From: Stackebrandtia albiflava
Lineage (GTDB): Bacteria; Actinomycetota; Actinomycetes; Mycobacteriales; Micromonosporaceae
Direction of reading: 5' to 3'
DNA length: 64,000 bases
Assembly (NCBI RefSeq): GCF_007994225.1
Contig: NZ_VLLL01000006.1
Location: 1,612,001-1,676,000 of the forward strand
Each line of letters opens with the position of its first letter. Within the stretch, counting starts at the first letter, position 1. The notes beneath the pieces are model-generated. The model saw only the letters and a program-made list of their open reading frames with translations. It did not search any database and was not told the DNA's origin. The position numbers and the translations under genes were made by a program. Below are positions 40,461 to 63,476 of the stretch, one piece after another.

Positions 40461-40535
40461 GGAAGGCCGTAGCCTCCGATGTGGTGCGTTCGCGTGACCG
40501 GCGCGGACCGGGGGCGAGCCGACTTGGGGGGTCGC

Positions 40536-42233
40536 GTGTGGCACTGGTTCACCACCACGCTGGGCGAACACCCGGAGATCGCGATCTTCCTGGCGTTGGC
40601 GGGTGGCTTCTTCATCGGCCGGTTGCGGTACCGTTCCCTCACTCTCGGCCCGGTCACCGGAACGCTGTTGGCGGGCGTCCTGGTCGGGTTGACGGCGGAC
40701 ATCGAGATCCCCGACCTGGTGAAGACCGTCGCGTTCGTGGGGTTCCTATTCGCGTTGGGTTACAACGTCGGTCCGCAGTTCTTCGCGGGTCTGCGCGGCG
40801 ACGGCGTGAAGCAGCTGGTGCTCGGTGTCGTGAACTGTGTGATCGGGCTCGGCGTCGTGTACCTGGCGGCGCGTCTGCTGGGTTACGGGCCGGGTTGGGG
40901 TGCGGGTCTGTTGGCGGGCGGCCTGACGCAGTCCTCCGTCATCGGTGTGGCCTCGGCGGCGATCCAGGAGCTTCCCGGCGTGTCGGCGTCGCAGGTGAAG
41001 GAGCTGGAGTCACAGATAGCCGTCGGGTACGCCGTCTGCTACCTGTTCGGCACGGCTGCCGCCGCCTACTTCCTGTCGAGTCTGGCGCCACGGATGATGG
41101 GCACCCGTGACCTGGCCGCGGCCGCTCATCGTCTGGAACGGCGGTTGGGTGTCTCCAAGGATCCCGACACCGCTCCCGCGTACTACTCGGTGGTGCGGAG
41201 GACGTACCGGTTGACGGGTGACGCGGTGATCGGCAGGACGGTGTCACAGGTCGAGTCGGACAGTGTGGAGTCCGGTCACCGGTTGTTGTTCCTGCGCATC
41301 CGGCGGGACGGTGAGGTGGTCGACGCCACGCCCGGGGAGGTCCTGCGGGACGGCGACGTGGTGACCTTGGCGGGCCGCCGTGCGGATCTGATCGCGCTCG
41401 GAGTGCCCGGCGGTTGGGGTGAGGAGGTCGACGACCCGGGACTGTTGGACTACCGGGTGGAGACCCTGTCGATCGTGGTGACCCGGCGGGAGCTGGTCGG
41501 CATGACGATCGGTGACGCCTTCGCCGCCTACGCCCCCGACCTGTTCGTGAACCGGTTGGTCCGGGGCGGGAAGGAGGTGCCGTGGAGTGACCGGGTGGTG
41601 CTGCATCGCGGTGACGAGCTGGAGGTGCAGGGCGACCGGGCGCACATGGAGGACTCGTTGCCTCGGTTGGGTTACGCCAACCGGAACAGGGACGAGACGG
41701 ACATGGGCTACGTCGGTTCGGGGATCGTGATCGGTGCGCTGGTGGGTGTCCCCACGGTCGCCGTCGCCGGTGCCGACATCGGGTTGACGACCTCCGGTGG
41801 CGCGTTGATCCTCGGCCTGGTGTTCGGGTGGCTGCGGGCTAGGTATCCGGTGTTCGGAAGATTCCCGCCGGCGGCGAACTGGTTGATGAACACCGGCGGC
41901 CTGTGCACGTTCGTCGGGATCGTGGGGATCACCGCCGGGCCGGGCTTCGTGTCGGGAATCGGGCAGGAGGGCTTGAGCCTGGTCGTGGCGGGGCTGGTCG
42001 TGACGCTGCTTCCGATGGTGGTCTCGCTGTACCTGGGGCGGTACCTGTTCGGTTTCTCGACGCCGATCCTGCTCGGGGTGGTGGCGGGCGCCAACACGAC
42101 GACCGCGTCGATCGGGGCGATCACCGAGGCCGCACGCAGCCAGACCCCGGTGCTGGGTTACACGGTTCCGTACGCGATCGGGAACACGCTGTTGACGATC
42201 TGGGGCGCGATCATCGTCGCGCTCCTCGCATGA
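40536..42233 (+). CDS. Aspartate:alanine exchanger AspT family transporter, copy 1
   Basis: The 565-residue protein has two membrane halves (five to six helices each) flanking cytoplasmic RCK/TrkA_C-like domains: G-D-A-V-I-G-R-T-V-S-Q-V..., LRDGDVVTLAGRRADLIALG, and VVLHRGDELEVQGDRAHMEDSLPRLGYA. The duplicated membrane motif LAGGLTQSSVIGVASAA / LLGVVAGANTTTASIGAITEAA marks the AspT/YbjL-YidE family. With AspD encoded next, it probably swaps aspartate in and alanine out. GTG at 40536 has GGGGGG upstream. It is the first gene of a three-gene unit. Confidence 0.88.
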   Translation: MWHWFTTTLGEHPEIAIFLALAGGFFIGRLRYRSLTLGPVTGTLLAGVLVGLTADIEIPDLVKTVAFVGFLFALGYNVGPQFFAGLRGDGVKQLVLGVVNCVIGLGVVYLAARLLGYGPGWGAGLLAGGLTQSSVIGVASAAIQELPGVSASQVKELESQIAVGYAVCYLFGTAAAAYFLSSLAPRMMGTRDLAAAAHRLERRLGVSKDPDTAPAYYSVVRRTYRLTGDAVIGRTVSQVESDSVESGHRLLFLRIRRDGEVVDATPGEVLRDGDVVTLAGRRADLIALGVPGGWGEEVDDPGLLDYRVETLSIVVTRRELVGMTIGDAFAAYAPDLFVNRLVRGGKEVPWSDRVVLHRGDELEVQGDRAHMEDSLPRLGYANRNRDETDMGYVGSGIVIGALVGVPTVAVAGADIGLTTSGGALILGLVFGWLRARYPVFGRFPPAANWLMNTGGLCTFVGIVGITAGPGFVSGIGQEGLSLVVAGLVVTLLPMVVSLYLGRYLFGFSTPILLGVVAGANTTTASIGAITEAARSQTPVLGYTVPYAIGNTLLTIWGAIIVALLA

Positions 42234-42246
42234 TGGGGGATGACGC

Positions 42247-43890
42247 ATGACGGTGACCGGTCCCCGGCACACCGGCCGGGACAGGCAGCGGGAACTGGAG
42301 GGGCTCAGCCCCTTCGAGTTGAAGAACACGCTGATCGGTTTGGCCGACGCGCAGCACGAACGCACCGCGAAGGCGATGATCAACGCCGGTCGCGGTAACC
42401 CGAACTGGGTGGCGACGACGCCCAGGGAGGCGTTCTTCCTGTTGGGCGCGTTCGGGATGGAGGAGAGCCGCCGGACCTGGGACGAGTGGGACGGCCTGGG
42501 TGGGATGCCGCGCGCCGACGGCATCGCCGGACGTTTCGACGACTTCATCGGCCGCAACGGCGACCGTCCCGGCGCGGACATGTTGAAGGCGGCCGTCGCG
42601 TACGGGGTCGACCGTCTCGGTTTCGACGCCGACGCGTGGGTGCACGAGCTGGCCGACTCCGTGGTGGGCGACCAGTACCCGGTGCCGGACCGGATGCTCA
42701 CCCACATCGAGAAGGTGGTCCACGAGTACCTGGTGCGGGAGATGTGCGCGGGGAGTCCGCCGGAGGGCGGGTACGACCTGTTCGCCACCGAGGGCGGTAC
42801 CGCCGCGATGTGTTACATCTTCGATTCGGCGGTGACGAACGGCCTGCTGAACCCGGGCGACAGGATCGCGATCATGACGCCGATCTTCACGCCCTACCTG
42901 GAGATACCGCGGCTGGAGCGTTACCACTTCGACGTCGTGGAGGTGCGGGCCGACATGCGGACCGAGGAGGGCGTCCACACCTGGCAGTACCCGGATTCGG
43001 AGATCGACAAGTTGGCGGATCCGTCGGTGAAGGCGCTGTTCTGTGTGAACCCGTCCAATCCGCCGTCGGTGAAGCTGTCCGATCCGACGCTGGACCGGAT
43101 CGCGCGGATCGTATCCGAGGACAATCCGGGCCTGGTCGTCATCACCGACGACGTGTACGGCACCTTCGTGGACGGTTTCCGCTCGTTGATGTCGATCGTG
43201 CCCCGCAACACGATCGGGGTGTACTCGTTCTCGAAGTACTTCGGCTGCACCGGTTGGCGGTTGGGGGTCATCGCGGTGGCCCGGGACAACGTCTTCGAGG
43301 AACGGTTGGCGGCGCTTCCCGACGAGTTCCGCGACAGGTTGCACGAGCGGTACTCCAGCATCACGCTGGAACCGGAGAAGTTGCGGTTCATCGACCGGAT
43401 GGTCGCGGACTCCCGGCAGGTCGCGCTCAACCACACCTCGGGGTTGTCGCTGCCGCAGCAGACCCAGATGGCGCTGTTCGCGTTGTCGAGCCTCCTCGAC
43501 GAGCGGCAACGGTACAGGCGGATCTGCCAGGCGATCATCGCGCGGCGCAAGCACGCGCTGGTGAAGGGGCTGGGGCTGCCGATTCCGCAGGACGACGAGG
43601 CCGCCGACTACTACCTCGAACTGGACCTGTTGTCGTGGGCGGAACGTCACCTCGGCCGGGACTTCGCCGAGTGGATGACCCGCAACTACGAACCGGTGGA
43701 CCCGATCTTCCGGTTGGCGGAGCAGGGCAGTGTGGTGCTGCTCAACGGCGGCGGCTTCGACGGTCCGCAGTGGTCGATCAGGATCTCGCTGGCGAACCTG
43801 GAGATGTCGGCGTACGAACAGATCGGCAAGTGGCTGCGCGAGATCGGCCGCGAGTACCAGGCGGAGTTCGCCGAACAGTCCGGGAGCTGA
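42247..43890 (+). CDS. aspD: Aspartate 4-decarboxylase, PLP-dependent
   Basis: AspD converts L-aspartate to L-alanine and CO2, using a proton in the cytoplasm. The 547-residue length fits AspD rather than ordinary aminotransferases. Motifs: AMINAGRGNPNWVATTPREAFFLLG, LFATEGGTAAMCYIFDS, CVNPSNPPSVKL, VITDDVYGTFVDGFRS and the PLP lysine in SFSKYFGCTGWRLGV. Flanked on both sides by AspT-type transporters with 13-bp and 3-bp gaps. Together they form an electrogenic decarboxylation cycle that can generate proton motive force, as known from Tetragenococcus. Confidence 0.93.
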   Translation: MTVTGPRHTGRDRQRELEGLSPFELKNTLIGLADAQHERTAKAMINAGRGNPNWVATTPREAFFLLGAFGMEESRRTWDEWDGLGGMPRADGIAGRFDDFIGRNGDRPGADMLKAAVAYGVDRLGFDADAWVHELADSVVGDQYPVPDRMLTHIEKVVHEYLVREMCAGSPPEGGYDLFATEGGTAAMCYIFDSAVTNGLLNPGDRIAIMTPIFTPYLEIPRLERYHFDVVEVRADMRTEEGVHTWQYPDSEIDKLADPSVKALFCVNPSNPPSVKLSDPTLDRIARIVSEDNPGLVVITDDVYGTFVDGFRSLMSIVPRNTIGVYSFSKYFGCTGWRLGVIAVARDNVFEERLAALPDEFRDRLHERYSSITLEPEKLRFIDRMVADSRQVALNHTSGLSLPQQTQMALFALSSLLDERQRYRRICQAIIARRKHALVKGLGLPIPQDDEAADYYLELDLLSWAERHLGRDFAEWMTRNYEPVDPIFRLAEQGSVVLLNGGGFDGPQWSIRISLANLEMSAYEQIGKWLREIGREYQAEFAEQSGS

Positions 43891-43893
43891 CCG

Positions 43894-45585
43894 ATGGAGT
43901 GGGTCAAGGATCTGCTCCAGTCCACACCCGAGCTGGCGTTGTTCCTGTGCCTGGCGGTCGGGTTCGGCATCGGCCGGGTCAAGGTGTGGAAGCTGTCGCT
44001 GGGTGGCGTCGCCGGGACCCTGATCGTGGCGATCCTGGTGGGCATGGTCGGGGGCATCACGCTCAACTCGCAGGTGCAGAACATCGCGTTCGCCCTGTTC
44101 ATATTCACGCTCGGTTACATGAGCGGGCCGTCGTTCTTCGCGAGCCTGAACCGCCGGAGCCTGCGGTACGGGGTGTTCACCGCCGTGGAGGTGGTGACGG
44201 TACTGGCGGTCACCGCCGCCGCGACGCTCCTTCTGGGGCTGGACCAGGGGACGGCGGCGGGCCTGATGGCCGGTGGCGCGACCGAGTCGGCGGTGGTGGG
44301 TACGGCCACCGACGCGATCGGGCGGCTCCCGTTGTCGGACGACCGGATAGCCACGCTCCAGGCCAACGTGGGGACCGCCTACTCGATCTCCTACATCTGC
44401 GGCCTGATCACGATCGTGTTGTTGACCAGTCAGTTCGCGCCGATGCTGATGGGCGTGAACCTGCGCGACGAGGCCGCGAAGCTGTGGCGGAAGCTGGGCG
44501 GCGGTGCCGGTGACGAGACGGCCGCGCCGGCGCTTCCGGGCCTGGTGGGCCGGGCGCACCGTGTGTCGACGGCGGCGGGTTCCCGGATCCGCGACGTCGA
44601 GGCGGGACTGGGTGAGGGCGCGACGGTGGAACGGTTGCGTCGCGACGGGGAGACCGTCGCGATGTCGCCCGACACGGCCCTGGAGGCGGGCGACGTCCTG
44701 TTGCTGGTGGGTCGGCGCGACGCGTTGATCGACGCCGAACGGTCGGTAGGGCCGGAGGTGGCGCCGCAGACCGGGATGGACCTGGAACTGGACGCGGTGG
44801 ACGTGGTGGTGCACAACACCGAGTACATGCCCGCCACCGTCGCCCAGTTGCGGGAGCGGATCCCGCCGCGGCAGCGGCACGGCGTGTTCCTGGCGGGTAT
44901 CACCAGAATGGACCACGCGCTGCCGGTGCGGCCGGCCACCGAGGTCCACAACGGTGACACGGTCCGGTTGACGGGTGTGAAGTCCGACCTGGCGTCGTTC
45001 GCGCCGAAGGTCGGGTTCCGTATCGACCGGGGTGTCAAGGCCGACTTCGTGTTCATCGCCCTGGGCGTGATCGTGGGGATGCTCATCGGCAAGTTGACGC
45101 TGACCGTGGGTACCGTGCCGTTGTCCCTGGGGACCGGCGGCGGATGCCTGTTGTCGGGCATGGTGTTCGGGTGGCTCAGGGCACGCAACCCGCGGTTCGG
45201 GCAGTACGATCCGGCGGCGGCCTCGGTGGTGAAGGACCTGGGCCTGGCGACGTTCATCTGCGCGGTGGGCCTGTCGTCGGGTCCGCAGGCGGTGGCGTTG
45301 ATCGGGGACTACGGTTTCGCGCTGCCGGTGGCGGGTGTGCTCATGACCCTGTTGCCCGCGTCCATTTCACTGTTCGTGGCGTGGAAGGTGATGAGGTTGC
45401 CGGCGCCGCTGGCGCTGGGTTCGGTGGCGGGCCAGCAGTGCAGTACGCCCGCCATCACCGCGATCCAGCAGGCGGCGGGCAACACGACGCCGCTCATGGC
45501 GTACACGGTCGTCTACGCCCTGTCCAATGTGGTGTTGCCGTTGCTGGGGCCGGTGGTGGTCGCCATGGCGGGCGCGCTGGGTTGA
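43894..45585 (+). CDS. Aspartate:alanine exchanger AspT family transporter, copy 2
   Basis: The 563-residue paralogue of the first transporter has the same plan: membrane half 1 with GYMSGPSFFASLNRRSLRYGV and LMAGGATESAVVGTATDAI, two RCK-like domains (ALEAGDVLLLVGRRDALIDAE, EVHNGDTVRLTGVKSDLASFAP), and membrane half 2 with GSVAGQQCSTPAITAIQQAAGNTTPLM. The ATG lies 3 bp after the aspD stop. AspT often works as a dimer, so the two copies may form a heterodimer or differ in substrate (inference). Confidence 0.88.
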   Translation: MEWVKDLLQSTPELALFLCLAVGFGIGRVKVWKLSLGGVAGTLIVAILVGMVGGITLNSQVQNIAFALFIFTLGYMSGPSFFASLNRRSLRYGVFTAVEVVTVLAVTAAATLLLGLDQGTAAGLMAGGATESAVVGTATDAIGRLPLSDDRIATLQANVGTAYSISYICGLITIVLLTSQFAPMLMGVNLRDEAAKLWRKLGGGAGDETAAPALPGLVGRAHRVSTAAGSRIRDVEAGLGEGATVERLRRDGETVAMSPDTALEAGDVLLLVGRRDALIDAERSVGPEVAPQTGMDLELDAVDVVVHNTEYMPATVAQLRERIPPRQRHGVFLAGITRMDHALPVRPATEVHNGDTVRLTGVKSDLASFAPKVGFRIDRGVKADFVFIALGVIVGMLIGKLTLTVGTVPLSLGTGGGCLLSGMVFGWLRARNPRFGQYDPAAASVVKDLGLATFICAVGLSSGPQAVALIGDYGFALPVAGVLMTLLPASISLFVAWKVMRLPAPLALGSVAGQQCSTPAITAIQQAAGNTTPLMAYTVVYALSNVVLPLLGPVVVAMAGALG

Positions 45586-55824: not shown

Positions 55825-56817
55825 ATGGCCATGACCGAGCAGATCCGTTGGGGAATCCTGGCCACCGGCGGCATCGCCGCCACCTTCACCGAAGACCTCA
55901 AGACGCTGCCCGGCGCCGTGGTCGGCGCGGTCGGGTCCCGTTCGACGGAGTCGGCGCGCCGGTTCGCCGACCGTTACGACATCCCCCGCGCGCACGGCTC
56001 CTGGGCGGAGCTGGCCGCCGACGAGGAGGTGGACGTGGTGTACGTGGCCACTCCCCACCACGCCCATCACGAGGCGGCGAAGCTGTGCCTGGAGGCGGGC
56101 AAGGCCGTCCTGTGCGAGAAGGCGTTCACCGTGAACCACGCGCAGGCGCGGGAACTGGTGGACATCGCCCGCGATCGTGGCGTGTTCCTGATGGAGGCCA
56201 TGTGGATGCGGTGCGTACCGGCGATCCGGCGACTCGCGGAACTGCTGGACGACGGCGTCATCGGAGAGGTCGCCAGGGTGAACGCCGATTTCGGCCTGTC
56301 CGGTCCCTTCCCGCCGGAGCACCGGTTGCGTGACCCGGAACTGGCGGGTGGGGCCCTCCTGGACCTGGGGGTCTACCCGGTCTCGTTGGCGCACCTGGTG
56401 CTCGGAAGGCCGGAGACGGTTCACGCGACGGGGCGGTTGACCGCCGAGGGTGTCGACGAGGTCACCGGGATGCTGTTCGGGTACCGGTCCGGGGCGGTCG
56501 CGACGCTGTCGTGCGGCCTGACCGGCGGAAGCCCGGTCACCGCCATGATCACCGGTTCGCTGGGGCGGGTCACCATACCGTCGCCGTTCTTCCGCCCGGA
56601 CGGCTTCACCGTGCACCGTGCCGACAGCGACGAGGTGTTCCGGGTGGGGTACACCGGTCACGGCATGGTCCACGAGGCCGCCGAGGTCATGCGTTGCCTG
56701 TCGGAGGGCCTGACGCAGAGCCCGCTGGTGCCGTGGGAGGCGACATTGGACGTCATGTCCGTCATGGACGACGTCCGGCGGTCGTTGGGTGTGGTCTACC
56801 CGGGCGAGAGTCGTTGA
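55825..56817 (+). CDS. Gfo/Idh/MocA-family oxidoreductase
   Basis: The 330-residue NAD(P)-dependent enzyme has an N-terminal Rossmann fold (WGILATGGIAATFTEDLKTLPGAVVGAVGSRSTESARRFADRY), the family motif VLCEKAFTVNHAQARELVDIA (C-E-K as in EKP), MWMRCVPAIRRLAELLDDGVIGEV and ALLDLGVYPVSLAHLVLG with the conserved Asp/Tyr/His positions. It resembles dihydrodiol dehydrogenase or glucose-fructose oxidoreductase types. Start could be 55825 or 55831. Confidence 0.9.
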   Translation: MAMTEQIRWGILATGGIAATFTEDLKTLPGAVVGAVGSRSTESARRFADRYDIPRAHGSWAELAADEEVDVVYVATPHHAHHEAAKLCLEAGKAVLCEKAFTVNHAQARELVDIARDRGVFLMEAMWMRCVPAIRRLAELLDDGVIGEVARVNADFGLSGPFPPEHRLRDPELAGGALLDLGVYPVSLAHLVLGRPETVHATGRLTAEGVDEVTGMLFGYRSGAVATLSCGLTGGSPVTAMITGSLGRVTIPSPFFRPDGFTVHRADSDEVFRVGYTGHGMVHEAAEVMRCLSEGLTQSPLVPWEATLDVMSVMDDVRRSLGVVYPGESR

Positions 56818-56879: not shown

Positions 56880-57485
56880 ATGCCGGAAACCGATTCGCCG
56901 CCACCGGCGGCCGTCATCGATCTGGGATCCACCTTCACGAAGGATCCGCCCGAGTCCGTGGAGCCGGGCGGCTCGGACACCCCGCCGGCCGAACCGGCCG
57001 CTCCGGGGCTGTGGCGTTACGTCGTGGTGGCCGCGGTCGCCGTCGTGGTGGCCGCCGCGCTGACGTTGTGGGGAACCATGCGGTTGCTGACTCCGGAGAC
57101 GGTGACACCGCCGAGCAACTCGGCCGAGTTGCTGGCGGAGATGGAGGGCCGGGTGCTGGCCGCGCTCGACGGCGAACCCGAGCTGATGATCACCGTCCCG
57201 GCGGCCATCAACGCGTCCGAACTCGTGGTGGTGTCCCCGGGCGACTACCGGCTGGGACTGATGTGCGGTGTCCTGAGTGTCTACCGTGAGGCCGTACCGG
57301 AGATCATCGTCAACGTGCAGGCCGACACCACCCGCGGATACCGGATGCCGTGCCCGTCCACACTGGTGTGGGCGCCCGACACCTGGCACTTCACGGAGGA
57401 CGCCGCGATGGAGTTCACCGTCTACAACGAGTCCGGGGTTCACGGCTACGTGATCTACGCGGTACTGACCCGGATCGAGGAGTGA
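56880..57485 (+). CDS. Single-TM protein, type A of a duplicated pair, copy 1
   Basis: The 201-residue protein has a Pro-rich cytoplasmic part starting MPETDSPPPAAVIDLGST, then GLWRYVVVAAVAVVVAAAL as the membrane helix, and an extracytoplasmic domain. That domain holds SAELLAEMEGRVLAAL, EPELMITV, VSPGDYRLGLMCGVLSVY and RMPCPSTLVWAPD, with two cysteines about 30 residues apart that can form a disulfide. No family recognised. It pairs with the next gene (5-bp gap), and the pair is repeated at 58181-59352. Confidence 0.7.
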   Translation: MPETDSPPPAAVIDLGSTFTKDPPESVEPGGSDTPPAEPAAPGLWRYVVVAAVAVVVAAALTLWGTMRLLTPETVTPPSNSAELLAEMEGRVLAALDGEPELMITVPAAINASELVVVSPGDYRLGLMCGVLSVYREAVPEIIVNVQADTTRGYRMPCPSTLVWAPDTWHFTEDAAMEFTVYNESGVHGYVIYAVLTRIEE

Positions 57486-57489
57486 ACGG

Positions 57490-58065
57490 ATGAGGAGCAG
57501 GCTGCTGCGGCCCTGGCCGCGCACCACGCTGGTCGCCGTCACCGCGATCGTCGCCGGATTGACCGCCTATCTCGTGGCGGAGGCCCGGCTCGGCCTGGAC
57601 GCCGTCGTCGACGCGCAGCCCGCGGCGGTCACCCCGGAGAGCTGGATCGATCCGCTGAGCGAGGAGGACCCGTTCAGCACGCCGGAACTGCGAGAGCTGG
57701 CCGCCGAGGTGTCCGACACCGAGCCGTCCGGTGATCCCGTGGTGGTGGTACAGGCGGAGGCGATGAGCCCCTCGCTCGCCGTGCTCCCGCCGGGGGACTA
57801 CTCGGTGTGGGGGGTGTGCCGGTCACTGGATCAGCCGGAGAACACCGCCTTCACGGTGGACGTCTCGGTGGACGGCGTGGAACCGCCTACCGGGTTCGAC
57901 GTCATCTGTGACCTGCCGGTGGAGGACACCGGGCTACGGGTGACGGTGTCCGAGCCCACGCCGATCCGGGTGTCGGCGTACATGTCCGACATGGACACCT
58001 CGCTCCCTGAAGAGGGCTGGGGCGCCTTCGAACTCGTCGCGGCGGTCCACTTCCTACCGGGGTGA
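57490..58065 (+). CDS. Single-TM protein, type B of the duplicated pair, copy 1
   Basis: The 191-residue protein begins MRSRLLRPWPRTTLVAVTAIVAGLTAYLV (short basic tail and signal anchor). The outer domain has V-T-P-E-S-W-I-D-P-L, LPPGDYSVWGVCRSL and G-F-D-V-I-C-D-L-P followed by DTGLRVTVSEPTPIRVSAYM. The 'P-x-G-x-Y-x(4)-C ... C' plan matches type A, so the four proteins share one fold. It lies 5 bp after type A copy 1. Confidence 0.7.
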   Translation: MRSRLLRPWPRTTLVAVTAIVAGLTAYLVAEARLGLDAVVDAQPAAVTPESWIDPLSEEDPFSTPELRELAAEVSDTEPSGDPVVVVQAEAMSPSLAVLPPGDYSVWGVCRSLDQPENTAFTVDVSVDGVEPPTGFDVICDLPVEDTGLRVTVSEPTPIRVSAYMSDMDTSLPEEGWGAFELVAAVHFLPG

Positions 58066-58180
58066 CGACCGGCCCCGGTCGCCGTGGATCGTCCCCGTCT
58101 CTCACCGTGTGACGACTCGTCCCGCTTCCGCCCCTCCGACGTGGTGAGGGTGGATCCGCCGGGTGCGAAAGGATACTTGA

Positions 58181-58765
58181 ATGCCGATGCCTGAATCCGC
58201 GCCCGTCGCGGTCATCGACCTGGACGCCGAAACGGCCCGCGAGCCGGTCTCGGAGGACCGGTCAACGCCGGACCCGTCGTCGCGGGGTCTGTGGCGCTAC
58301 GCCGCCGTGGCGCTCGCGTCGGCGGTGCTGGCGGCCGCCGTCACCTTCTGGGGGGTGCAACGGTGGCTCACACCGGAGGCGGCCGATCCGATCCGGGACT
58401 CCGCCGAGTTGGCTCGGGTGATGGAGGACGAGCTGTCGGCGGAGCTGGGAGCCGAACCCGAACTGATGGTCACACTCGGCGTCGACGGGGTGCGTTCCTC
58501 GCTCGAGGTGATTCCGGCCGGGCGATATCGTGTCGGCCTCCTGTGTGGAGTCCTGAACGTCTACGGTGACGCGCCCGAACGGGTGGAGGTGTACATCCCG
58601 ATGGCGGAGTCACCCGGCTTCCTGATGCCCTGTCCGTCCACACTGGTGTGGGCGGAGGAGGAGCCGTCGTACACCGAGGACACCGCGATGGAGCTGTCCG
58701 TCGACGATCCCGAGGGCTTCGGCGCCTACGTCGTCCACATCGTCTTCATGGCGGTGGACGCGTGA
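58181..58765 (+). CDS. Single-TM protein, type A of a duplicated pair, copy 2
   Basis: The 194-residue paralogue of 56880-57485 shares AVIDL, GLWRY, LTPEA, SAEL, EPELM, P-x-G-x-Y-R-V-G-L-L-C-G-V-L-N-V-Y, M-P-C-P-S-T-L-V-W-A and the T-E-D-T-A-M-E-L stretch near the end. The membrane helix is AAVALASAVLAAAVTFWG. Divergence is large elsewhere, so the duplication is old or the domains evolve fast. The stop overlaps the start of type B copy 2 (TGATG). Confidence 0.7.
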   Translation: MPMPESAPVAVIDLDAETAREPVSEDRSTPDPSSRGLWRYAAVALASAVLAAAVTFWGVQRWLTPEAADPIRDSAELARVMEDELSAELGAEPELMVTLGVDGVRSSLEVIPAGRYRVGLLCGVLNVYGDAPERVEVYIPMAESPGFLMPCPSTLVWAEEEPSYTEDTAMELSVDDPEGFGAYVVHIVFMAVDA

Positions 58766-59352
58766 TGCGGCGGAACGACGCGCTCCTCCGGCCGTGGCCG
58801 CGCACCAGGATCTTCGTGACGACCGCCGCCCTGGCGCTCCTCACCGGATTCCTACTCGCCGACGCGCGGTACGACGCGACCGGGACGGCCGACCGGCTGC
58901 CGGAGGTGGTGGCACCGGAGGGCTGGCTGGAACCGTTGCCCGACGATCGGTCGGTCGTGACGGAGGAACAGGGCCGGGCACTGGAGACCGTGGCGGCGGC
59001 GGAACCGGAGGTCACGGTCGTGCCGTTGCTGGTGGACGTCGTGGCCACGGCGGCGCTGCTGCCGGCGGGTGAGTACACGATCCGGGTGGTGTGCGTCTTC
59101 GTGGACACCGATGACGAGGAGACGTCGGGAGAGGGCCAGATCGAGGTGCGGGGCGATGACGGCCGGCGGCATCAGGTGCCGTTCTCCTGTCCGCAGACGG
59201 GCCGGGACACCGGAGTCACCGTCGTCTCGGACGGCGGCGCGATCAGCGTCAGCGCGTATCTGCGTTCCCTGGTCGTCGGTGGCGACGGAACGCTGCCGTC
59301 CACGGATGGAAACCCGCAGATGGCGGTCGGAGTCCACTTCGTCCCGGAGTGA
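58765..59352 (+). CDS. Single-TM protein, type B of the duplicated pair, copy 2
   Basis: The 195-residue paralogue of 57490-58065 starts MRRNDALLRPWPRTRIFVTTAALALLTGFLL. It shares LLRPWPRT, A-P-E-G-W-L-E-P-L, LPAGEYTIRVVCVFVD, the second Cys in V-P-F-S-C-P-Q and DTGVTVVSDGGAISVSAYLRSL, ending AVGVHFVPE as copy 1 ends AAVHFLPG. ATG at 58765 overlaps the upstream stop; a GTG three nt earlier is possible. Confidence 0.7.
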   Translation: MRRNDALLRPWPRTRIFVTTAALALLTGFLLADARYDATGTADRLPEVVAPEGWLEPLPDDRSVVTEEQGRALETVAAAEPEVTVVPLLVDVVATAALLPAGEYTIRVVCVFVDTDDEETSGEGQIEVRGDDGRRHQVPFSCPQTGRDTGVTVVSDGGAISVSAYLRSLVVGGDGTLPSTDGNPQMAVGVHFVPE

Positions 59353-59364
59353 CGGGGCGGCGCC

Positions 59365-59562
59365 TCACTCGTCGAAGCCGTCGGGTTCGTCCGCCTCGTC
59401 GTCGAGGCGGGCCAGCCAGGTCGCGAGCCGTTCGACGGCCGTCTCGAACTCCGGGTTGTCGTCTACGAACTCCCGAAGCCGGGAGGCCAGCCACTCCAAA
59501 GTGACCTCCTCCTCGCCGCGACGCTGTTCCAGTTCCTCGATGCCACGGTCGGTGTAGTACAT
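59365..59562 (-). CDS. DUF6104-type small acidic protein
   Basis: The 65-residue protein (MYYTDRGIEELEQRRGEEEVTLEWLASRLREFVDDNPEFETAVERLATWLARLDDE) is helical and acidic. It matches a short actinobacterial family that is regularly encoded directly downstream of kgd, as here (138 bp after the kgd stop, same strand). Function unknown; its constant position suggests a link to 2-oxoglutarate metabolism, which is inference. Confidence 0.82.
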   Translation of the reverse strand: MYYTDRGIEELEQRRGEEEVTLEWLASRLREFVDDNPEFETAVERLATWLARLDDEADEPDGFDE

Positions 59563-59699: not shown

Positions 59700-62600
59700 T
59701 CAGGACTTGGCCGGCATGGCCACGTCGATCAGCGCCTGCTGCTCGACGTCGTGGATCTTCTGCGAACCGACCGACGGGGCGGCGGCGGCCGGACGCGAGA
59801 TCCGGCGCAGGCTGACACCGTCGAGGTGTTCCAGCAGGTTGAGCGCGATGTGCGACCAGGCGCCCTGGTTCGCCGGCTCCTCCTGCACCCAGGCGTGCTC
59901 CTCCGCGTTGCCGAACCGGGCCAGCTCCGCCTTGATCTCCTCGGCGGGCAGCGGGTACAGCATCTCCACCCGGATCAACGCGGTGTCGGTGATCCCGTGC
60001 TTCTCGCGGGCCGCGGCGAGGTCGTAGTACACCTTGCCGGAGCACAGCAGGACCCGCTTCACCCGCGACGGATCGACCGTGCCGTCGGCGACCGCGGGGT
60101 CGCCCAACACCGGCTGGAACCGGCCGGAGGTGAAGTCCGACACCGCCGACACGCAGTGCTTGTTGCGCAGCAGCGACTTCGGTGTGAAGACGACGAGCGG
60201 CTTCTTCTTCGGCGACAACGCCTGGCGGCGCAGCAGGTGGAAGTAGTTCGCCGGGGTGGTGCAGTTGGCGACCCGCATGTTGTCCTCCGCGCACAGCTGG
60301 AGGTACCGTTCCGGGCGCCCGGAGGTGTGGTCCGGACCGGCTCCCTCGTGGCCGTGCGGCAGGAGCAGGACCACGCCGGAACGCTGGCCCCACTTGGCCT
60401 CACTGGAGGAGATGAACTCGTCCACGATGGACTGGGCGCCGTTGGCGAAGTCGCCGAACTGGGCCTCCCAGCACACCAGCGCGTCCGGGTTCTCCACCGA
60501 GTAGCCGTACTCGAAGCCCATCGCGGCGAACTCGCTCAGCAGCGAGTCGTACACCCAGAAGCGGGCGCCGTCCGAGGCCAACGAGGCGATCGGAGTGTAC
60601 TCCGCGGCGGTGTCGTGGTCCACGACGACCGAGTGCCGCTGCACGAAGGTGCCGCGACGGGAGTCCTGACCGGCGAGCCGGACCGAGACACCCTGCGACA
60701 GCAGCGAACCGAACGCCAGGATCTCCCCGAACGCCCAGTCGACGTCGCCCTCCACGGCGGCCTTGGCGCGACGCTGCAACACCTGGTTCACCCGCTTGTG
60801 CGGCGTGAAGCCCTCCGGCAGCGAGGTCTGCACCTCGCCGATCCGTTTGAGGACCGAGGCGTCCACGGCGGTGTCGACCTCGACCTCCGGTTCCACGGTA
60901 CGGGTGCGGGTCGGCTGGCCGATCCCCGCGATCGCCTTCTTGGTCGAGGTGAAGACCCGTTCCAGTTGGGACTGGTAGTCCTTCAGCGCCTCCTCCGCGT
61001 CGGCGACCGAGATGTCACCGCGCCCGATCAGCGCCTCGGTGTACAGCTTGCGGACCGAGCGCTTGGCGTCGATGATCTGGTACATCAACGGGTTGGTCAT
61101 CGACGGGTCGTCGCCCTCGTTGTGGCCGCGGCGGCGGTAGCACAGCATGTCGATGACGACGTCCTTGTTGAACGTCTGCCGGTACTCGAACGCCAGCTTG
61201 GCGACCCGGACGACCGCCTCGGGGTCGTCGCCGTTCACGTGGAAGATCGGCGCCTGGATCATGCGGGCGACGTCGGTGGAGTACAGCGACGAACGCGAGT
61301 ACTCCGGTGCGGTGGTGAAACCGACCTGGTTGTTGACGATGACGTGGACCGTCCCGCCGGTGCGGTAGCCCCGCAGCTGCGACAGGTTCAGCGTCTCGGC
61401 GACCACGCCCTGCCCGGCGAAGGCGGCGTCACCGTGCACCAGCAGCGGCAGGACGGTGTAGCCCTCCAGGCCGAGGTCGAGCCGGTCCTGCTTGGCGCGG
61501 ACGATGCCCTCCAGCACCGGGTCCACCGCCTCCAGGTGGCTCGGGTTCGCCACCACCGACACCGTCGTGGCGTACTCGCCGTCGGGGGTGGTGAACTTCC
61601 CGGTCATGCCCAGGTGGTACTTGACGTCGCCGGAGCCCTGGACCGTCTTCGGGTCCATCGAACCCTCGAACTCGGAGAAGATCTTCTCCGGCGGCTTTCC
61701 GACGATGTTGGACAGTACGTTCAACCGTCCACGGTGGGACATGCCGATGACGACCTCGTCGAGCGACTCGCGCGCGGCGTGCGACAGCACCTCGTCCAAC
61801 AGCGGGATGAGCGACTCGCCGCCCTCCAGCGAGAACCGCTTCTGGCCGACGTACTTGGTGCCCAGGAAGGTCTCGAACGCCTCCGCGACGTTCAGCCGGC
61901 CCAGGATGTGCTTCTGGTGGTCGGTCTCGGGCTTCTCGTACGGCCGCTCGACGCGCGCCTGGATCCAGGCCCGCTCTTCCGGTTCCTGGATGTGCATGTA
62001 CTCGATGCCGACACGGCGGCAGTACGACTCGCGCAGCACACCGAGGATGTCGCGCAGCCGCATCTTGCGCTGCCCGGCGAACCCGCCGACCGGGAAGAAC
62101 CGGTCCAGGTCCCACAGGGTCAACCCGTGTTCGAGGATGTCCAGGTCGGGGTGGCGACGGATCTCGTACTCCAACGGGTCGGTGTCGGCCATCAGGTGGC
62201 CGCGGACCCGGTAGGCGTGGATCAGCTCGATGACCCGCGCGGTCTTGTCGATCTGGCCCTCGGAGGTGTGGGCGACGTCGCGGACCCAGCGGACCGGCTC
62301 GTACGGGATCCGCAGCGAGGTGAAGATCTCGTCGTAGAAGCCGTCGGTGCCCAACAGCAGTTCGTGCATCCGCTTCAGGAACTCGCCGGACTGGGCGCCC
62401 TGGATGACACGGTGGTCGTAAGTGGACGTGACCGTGATCGTCTTGGACACGCCCAACTCGGTGATCGTGTCGTCGGAGGCGCCGGCGAACTGCGCCGGGT
62501 ACTCCATCGCGCCGACACCGATGATGGTGCTCTGCCCCGCCATCAGCCTCGGTACCGAGTGGACGGTGCCGATTCCGCCGGGGTTGGTCAGCGTCAGCGT

Positions 62601-63476
62601 CGCCCCGGTGTGGTCCTCCAGGGTCAGCTTGTTGTTGCGCGCCTTGCGCACGATCTCCTCGTACGCCTGCCAGAACTGCGCGAAGTCCATCTCCTGGCAG
62701 TTCTTTATGCTCGGGACCACCAGGGTGCGGGAGCCGTCGTCCTTCTTCAGGTCGATCGCCAGGCCCAGGTTGACCGCGCCGGGCACCACCAGGTGCGGCT
62801 TCCCGTCCACCTCCGCGTAGGAGTGGTTCATCTCCGGGTGGGTCGCGAGCGCCTTCACCAGGGCGTAGCCGATGAGGTGCGTGAAGCTGACCTTGCCGCC
62901 GCGTCCCCGCTTGAGGTGGTTGTTGATGACGATGCGGTTGTCGGAGATCAGCTTGGCGGGAACGTCCCGGACGCTCGTGGCGGTCGGGATCTCCAGGGAC
63001 TTCTCCATGTTGGCGGCGACCTTGCCGGCGACGCCGCGCAACGGGGTGCGCCGCGTCTCACCGGCCGGTTCCGAGGCCACCGGCTTGGCGGGAGTCGGCT
63101 TCTTGCCCGGCTCGGCGGACTTGCCGGTCGTGGTGCCGGGCTTGGGCGGGGCGTCGGTCTGCTTCGTCGGTGCCGCCTTCGCCCGTGGGCGCTCCCCGGC
63201 GGTCGCGGTCTCGGCGGGCCGGTTGCCGTTCCCGGTGGACGCGGGGGTGCTCGGGGTCACCGAACCGCGGGTGGCGGTGGCGACCGGGGCGTTGGCGGGC
63301 GCGGCGGCGGGTTCGCCGCCCTGGGACGGCTGGTAATCGGCGAAGAACTCGTGCCAGGTCGGCTCGACGCTGGCGGGATCGGTGAGGTAGCGCTGATACA
63401 TCTCCTCGACGATCCACTCGTTGGGACCGAACTCGGTGAGTGAGTGTGCACCTGAGGTGTTGTCTTGACTCGACAC
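59700..63476 (-). CDS. kgd: Multifunctional 2-oxoglutarate dehydrogenase/decarboxylase Kgd
   Basis: Kgd is the fused E1 and E2-like component of the TCA-cycle 2-oxoglutarate dehydrogenase. The 1258-residue protein has an N-terminal helix ([33 protein letters not shown]), a 90-residue Pro/Ala/Thr linker, an acyltransferase domain ([11 protein letters not shown]..., with [10 protein letters not shown] as the active site) and the ThDP-dependent E1 ([69 protein letters not shown]). No lipoyl domain, as usual. GTG start at 63476. Confidence 0.97.

Follow-up and report, generated by a model that had tools for sequence, protein, structure and literature searches.

The 64,000-nucleotide stretch of Stackebrandtia albiflava contig NZ_VLLL01000006.1 analysed here (the window; its genome, G000, comprises 5.55 Mb in 13 contigs) carries two tandem copies of a two-gene module, A1-B1 and A2-B2, that encodes small signal-anchored proteins with related outer domains. 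The pairing of A with B genes is well supported in the genomes that carry them. We tentatively favour, at slightly less than an even chance, the reading that A and B make up an envelope module of two chains, which probably senses across the membrane and docks a partner through the tail of A. All four genes were confirmed at the positions and on the strand given by a first-pass annotation of the sequence.

56880..57485, + strand: A1, a signal-anchored protein of 201 residues with a cytoplasmic tail containing AVIDLG, a transmembrane (TM) segment and an outer domain with SPGDYRLGLMC and MPCPST
57490..58065, + strand: B1, a signal-anchored protein of 191 residues with an LLRPWPRT tail, a TM segment and an outer domain with PPGDYSVWGVC and VICDLP
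58181..58765, + strand: A2, a paralogue of A1 of 194 residues, with AVIDLD in the tail
58765..59352, + strand: B2, a paralogue of B1 of 195 residues, with an LLRPWPRT tail; its start lies inside the A2 stop

A gap of 4 bases separates A1 from B1, and A2 shares one base with B2. A1/A2 and B1/B2 are paralogue pairs, with 44% identity over 194 aligned residues (z 28.9) and 36% identity over 185 aligned residues (z 16.9), respectively (200 shuffles each). A hydrophobic stretch was identified at the N-terminus of all four proteins, in agreement with the signal anchoring proposed in the first-pass annotation; in B2, a stretch of the outer domain scores slightly higher than the N-terminal one. The AVIDL element of both A tails and the LLRPWPRT element of both B tails were likewise found exactly as described. 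The annotation also proposed a shared plan for the outer domain, of which the two cysteines stood and several particulars did not: the first cysteine follows the tyrosine at a spacing of x(5) rather than x(4), the supposedly universal P-x-G element fails in A1, which reads S-P-G, and the second cysteine, expected in P-C-P or I-C-D, lies in S-C-P in B2. As corrected, the motif of the four window proteins is G-x-Y-x(5)-C with the second cysteine 29 to 32 residues later. These are the only two cysteines in each protein and are predicted to form a disulfide. The outer part of A2 was predicted to fold as a helix and a seven-strand sandwich (predicted local distance difference test score 83, predicted template modelling score 0.79).

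A2 and B1 served as queries against 61 genomes, and profiles of A and of B were run over 300 genomes of the GTDB family. The A profile matched in 56 genomes, and 27 of the loci from the two profile searches were inspected, several of them on the opposite strand; we counted only the eight full-length A genes in five genomes (5/300, in 3 of 44 genera), the other matches being partial and covering the tail and TM segment (E 8e-5 to 0.01). Three of the eight genes are in G000, two in G003 and one each in G002, G010 and G029. A B gene directly follows A in every case, the B frame of G002 stopping early close to a contig end (right end of L029). The strict pairing and repetition claimed in the first-pass annotation are thus borne out, and the separation of A and B in most genomes, which it had named as counter-evidence, was not observed; a single lone B-like gene was found in G029 (L032 6990-7583), preceded by what we take to be a gene for a GntR-like regulator; the product of this B-like gene has RPWPR in its tail and an acidic N-terminus of greater length. 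The IDL motif is present in seven of the eight A tails and R-P-W in all eight B tails of the pairs. When an outer-domain profile was run against 394 genomes of the class, it matched G000 and, over part of its length (65/123 positions, E 5e-5), a G430 protein that contains LEPGDYQVRGEC and may be related. The three A genes of G000 cluster in the A tree (93/93), as do the G003 and G002 genes in the joint tree (95/95), the B tree being unresolved; because of these groupings, the tandem pairs either arose more than once or were homogenised.

The search with the B profile also identified another type of gene pair, termed X and Y, at a different site in G010 and G029. Because the X/Y chains of G010 combine an IDL-like tail with [RK]PWPR, the two tail types of A and B may derive from one ancestor. 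When a profile of 12 outer domains was run over 354 family genomes, 13 genomes matched; outside the five A-B genomes there were nine places in eight genomes, seven of them after an extracytoplasmic function (ECF) sigma gene and two at the X/Y neighbourhood. Members with two domains contain four cysteines and those with one domain contain two. One of these proteins (L187) is a full Pfam DUF6023 protein (PF19487, E 7.2e-60), and the DUF6023 cut-off of 26.8 bits was passed by L191, L181, L180 and L186 and failed by L184 and L185, the scan covering L180, L181, L184 to L187 and L191. DUF6023 itself occurs in 80 of the 354 genomes, in 7 of 44 genera; it is absent from G000 and from all 14 control genomes.

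We read 49 of the 82 DUF6023 places (L187, L199-L228 and 18 in L229-L244), and the majority share one conserved neighbourhood, whose genes we take from their sequences to be KAS, ACAD, UbiA, LpqE-like, RadA and CarD. This neighbourhood contains one fused four-cysteine gene in five genomes of one genus (G019, G111, G152, G156, G159) and two adjacent single-domain genes in G031, like X and Y in G010 and G029. Domains that are encoded separately in one genome and fused in another are Rosetta-stone evidence, which here points to a joint function. In the second context, nine proteins (L180 to L186, L236, L241) are encoded directly downstream of an ECF sigma gene; eight of them have two domains, and a cytoplasmic segment with RRRR at its end is common to all nine. 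The three adjoining ECF genes that were scanned matched the SigE-family model TIGR02983 (E 1e-38 to 1e-41), slightly below its cut-off of 141.55 bits. G010 also encodes a lone lipoprotein-like protein of 174 residues with one DUF6023-like domain (L230 2439-2963).

Profile-profile comparison with HHalign was restricted to the outer domains; 18 reversed-profile controls gave 0.1 to 6.6%, and an LpqE-like control profile, built from 2 sequences only, gave 0.1 to 0.2%. The A and B outer domains scored 97.2% against each other and are, by this measure, homologous. Domain 1 of the ECF-coupled proteins was matched by B (95.2%), A (87.5%) and X/Y (97.0%), and domain 2 by X/Y (93.4%); a set of 37 DUF6023-type domains gave 83.0% with X/Y and 66.9% with B. 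Against the two domains of the fused gene, A scored 12.9 and 16.5% and B 67.9 and 0.7%. We saw no sign that A corresponds to domain 1 and B to domain 2: both favour ECF domain 1. The pattern of these scores would join A and B to the superfamily through a chain of comparisons rather than a direct Pfam match, and suggests that their outer domain is a divergent relative of DUF6023, a remote kinship that runs via the ECF-coupled proteins.

In direct searches of Pfam and NCBIfam neither A nor B scored above a curated cut-off, and sequence comparison with the PDB returned no relative. The A and B families did not match Pfam DUF6023, nor did X/Y or the lone B-like gene at E 0.1. The annotation's statement that the proteins belong to no described family therefore holds for direct searches and gives way where profile-profile comparison points to DUF6023. 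No Pfam model of a cytoplasmic anti-sigma domain matched A or B; the sole match to any anti-sigma model, A2 residues 17-82 to NF052375, reached 20.7 bits against a cut-off of 100 and includes the TM region. Literature searches within the collection consulted found no mention of DUF6023 or TIGR02983, and none joining Glycomycetaceae, "hypothetical protein" and "single transmembrane".

A/B and Pfam DUF6023 proteins alike have a signal anchor and a single outer domain in which G-x-Y-x(5)-C is followed, about 25 to 40 residues later, by another cysteine, whereas A and B fall outside the Pfam model, form obligate adjacent pairs, carry IDL or RPW tails and occupy another locus. The two-domain SigE-type ECF-coupled proteins of Actinoplanes-like genomes bear the same outer domain twice per signal-anchored chain; unlike A and B, they are fused, adjoin the sigma gene and have cytoplasmic V-x-P-G ... 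T-V-[RK]-R-R-R in place of the IDL tail. With class I anti-sigma factors of ECF sigma factors, A and B share a single TM segment, an outer domain and a cytoplasmic tail, and differ in having no adjacent sigma gene and a match to an anti-sigma model far below its cut-off.

An A-B module might work as follows. A and B each bear one copy of the same two-cysteine domain, a predicted beta-sandwich, and the two outer domains most likely act as one unit, presumably as a physical A-B heterodimer, comparable to the two tandem copies in one chain of the relatives. The outer pair would bind an envelope ligand or report the state of the envelope, and the long A tail would relay the signal through its [VA]IDL[GD] motif to a cytoplasmic partner encoded elsewhere. 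The model is the fused relatives after SigE-type ECF genes, which would control that sigma factor. It is because these relatives are ECF-coupled that sensing across the membrane is proposed, and the envelope sensing suggested in the annotation gains indirect support from them; none of the results speaks to the adhesion or recognition that it also named. DUF6023 has no assigned function in Pfam, and its split and fused forms together with the SigE-type ECF coupling yield a testable sensor hypothesis, in which A-B would put that outer pair to a further use with no sigma gene next to it. Four PQQ-repeat signal-anchored proteins (L043, L045, L058, L155; PQQ_2 E 1e-9 to 1e-13) start with VIDL[GD] like the A tails. 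A cytoplasmic receptor shared by both is conceivable, and if the tail docks to it, A-B would be linked to an uncharacterised group of PQQ-repeat membrane proteins. A broader proposal, which we consider unlikely, treats DUF6023-like domains as a modular envelope sensor of Micromonospora- and Stackebrandtia-type actinobacteria that occurs in ECF-coupled, free (single or fused) and split (A-B, X-Y) forms, the split form signalling through the [VA]IDL[GD] docking motif common to the PQQ-repeat proteins to one cytoplasmic hub.

Several observations weigh against a sensing A-B module. No sigma factor gene adjoins A-B in the window or at the third G000 pair (called neighbours, judged by eye), and the A tail does not contain the cytoplasmic segment that the ECF-coupled proteins have. 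Control of the sigma factor by the latter is in turn presumed from their anti-sigma-like position. In the profile comparisons, ECF-coupled domain 2 gave 21.6% with A and 19.6% with B, and A reached only 21.3% with the DUF6023 set. One of the nine ECF-coupled proteins has a single domain, and the best 30 of the DUF6023 places are all single-domain genes adjoining a KAS-like gene; because the single-domain form is common, a strict need for two domains is doubtful. The third A of G000 does not have the IDL motif, and the pair is patchy, being missing from G004 and from the corresponding site of G001.

The chromosomal site was compared between genomes by means of two genes that flank the window pairs.

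55825..56817, + strand: Gfo/Idh/MocA-type oxidoreductase (Pfam match, E 1.7e-21)
59365..59562, - strand: conserved gene of 65 residues, convergent with B2

The 65-residue gene, presumably DUF6104, is followed by what we take to be kgd (59700-63476). The oxidoreductase gene lies immediately upstream of one A gene in 5/5 pair-bearing genomes. The pairs of G000, G003 and G029 sit between it and the 65-residue gene/kgd, in G010 the pair lies beyond the oxidoreductase, which stands between it and those genes, and in G002 the two sides of the site are split over different contigs, the one with the 65-residue gene also carrying a presumed transposase-like gene (L128 5219-5554). Two tandem pairs occupy the site in G000 and G003 and a single pair in G010, G029 and G002. 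The third G000 pair, found with a four-protein profile, lies on a separate contig away from the oxidoreductase. G004, of the same genus as G000, has a different gene at the site, for an unrelated-looking protein of 201 residues (L126 4776-5381), and no A-B; the G001 site contains neither pair nor oxidoreductase.

The main alternative to an A-B sensor, which we consider possible although less probable, is that A and B form a binding or accessory module that does not signal: a paired beta-sandwich for an envelope glycan or lipid, or a helper of a membrane machine in the manner of MmpS-MmpL. MmpS4 of mycobacteria is reported to combine an N-terminal TM segment with a small outer beta-sandwich (PMC3561183), and the same layout is predicted for A and B. 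The two differ in that A and B are homologous two-gene pairs with no Pfam or NCBIfam match above cut-off to MmpS or other transporter-accessory families; no MmpL-type or other transporter gene was seen at the locus (window gene list from 40 kb on, judged by eye), the fold matches are generic, and the same domain occurs in the ECF-coupled relatives. Comparison with carbohydrate-binding jelly-roll modules gave no fold match set clearly apart from background.

The pairs could also be a fast-evolving surface recognition module, with duplicates diversifying for self/non-self discrimination or against phages or competitors. Such a role would suit the low identity of the copies, their patchy presence and their separate tandem expansions (the G000 copies group together and those of G003 and G002 apart), yet we judge it distinctly improbable: the place after the oxidoreductase is fixed in all five genomes, no defence family was matched over E 0.001 and no mobile gene adjoins the window copy. 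Least probable, with only a slight chance in our estimation, is ordinary tandem duplication in which the second pair is redundant and being lost. A single pair does suffice in G010, G029 and G002, but with 44 and 36% identity between the copies, the four window frames are intact and have kept their cysteines, motifs and near-overlap, unlike decaying copies.

Elsewhere in the window, 40494-45585 holds what we take from the sequence to be two AspT-like transporter genes flanking an aspartate 4-decarboxylase-like gene.
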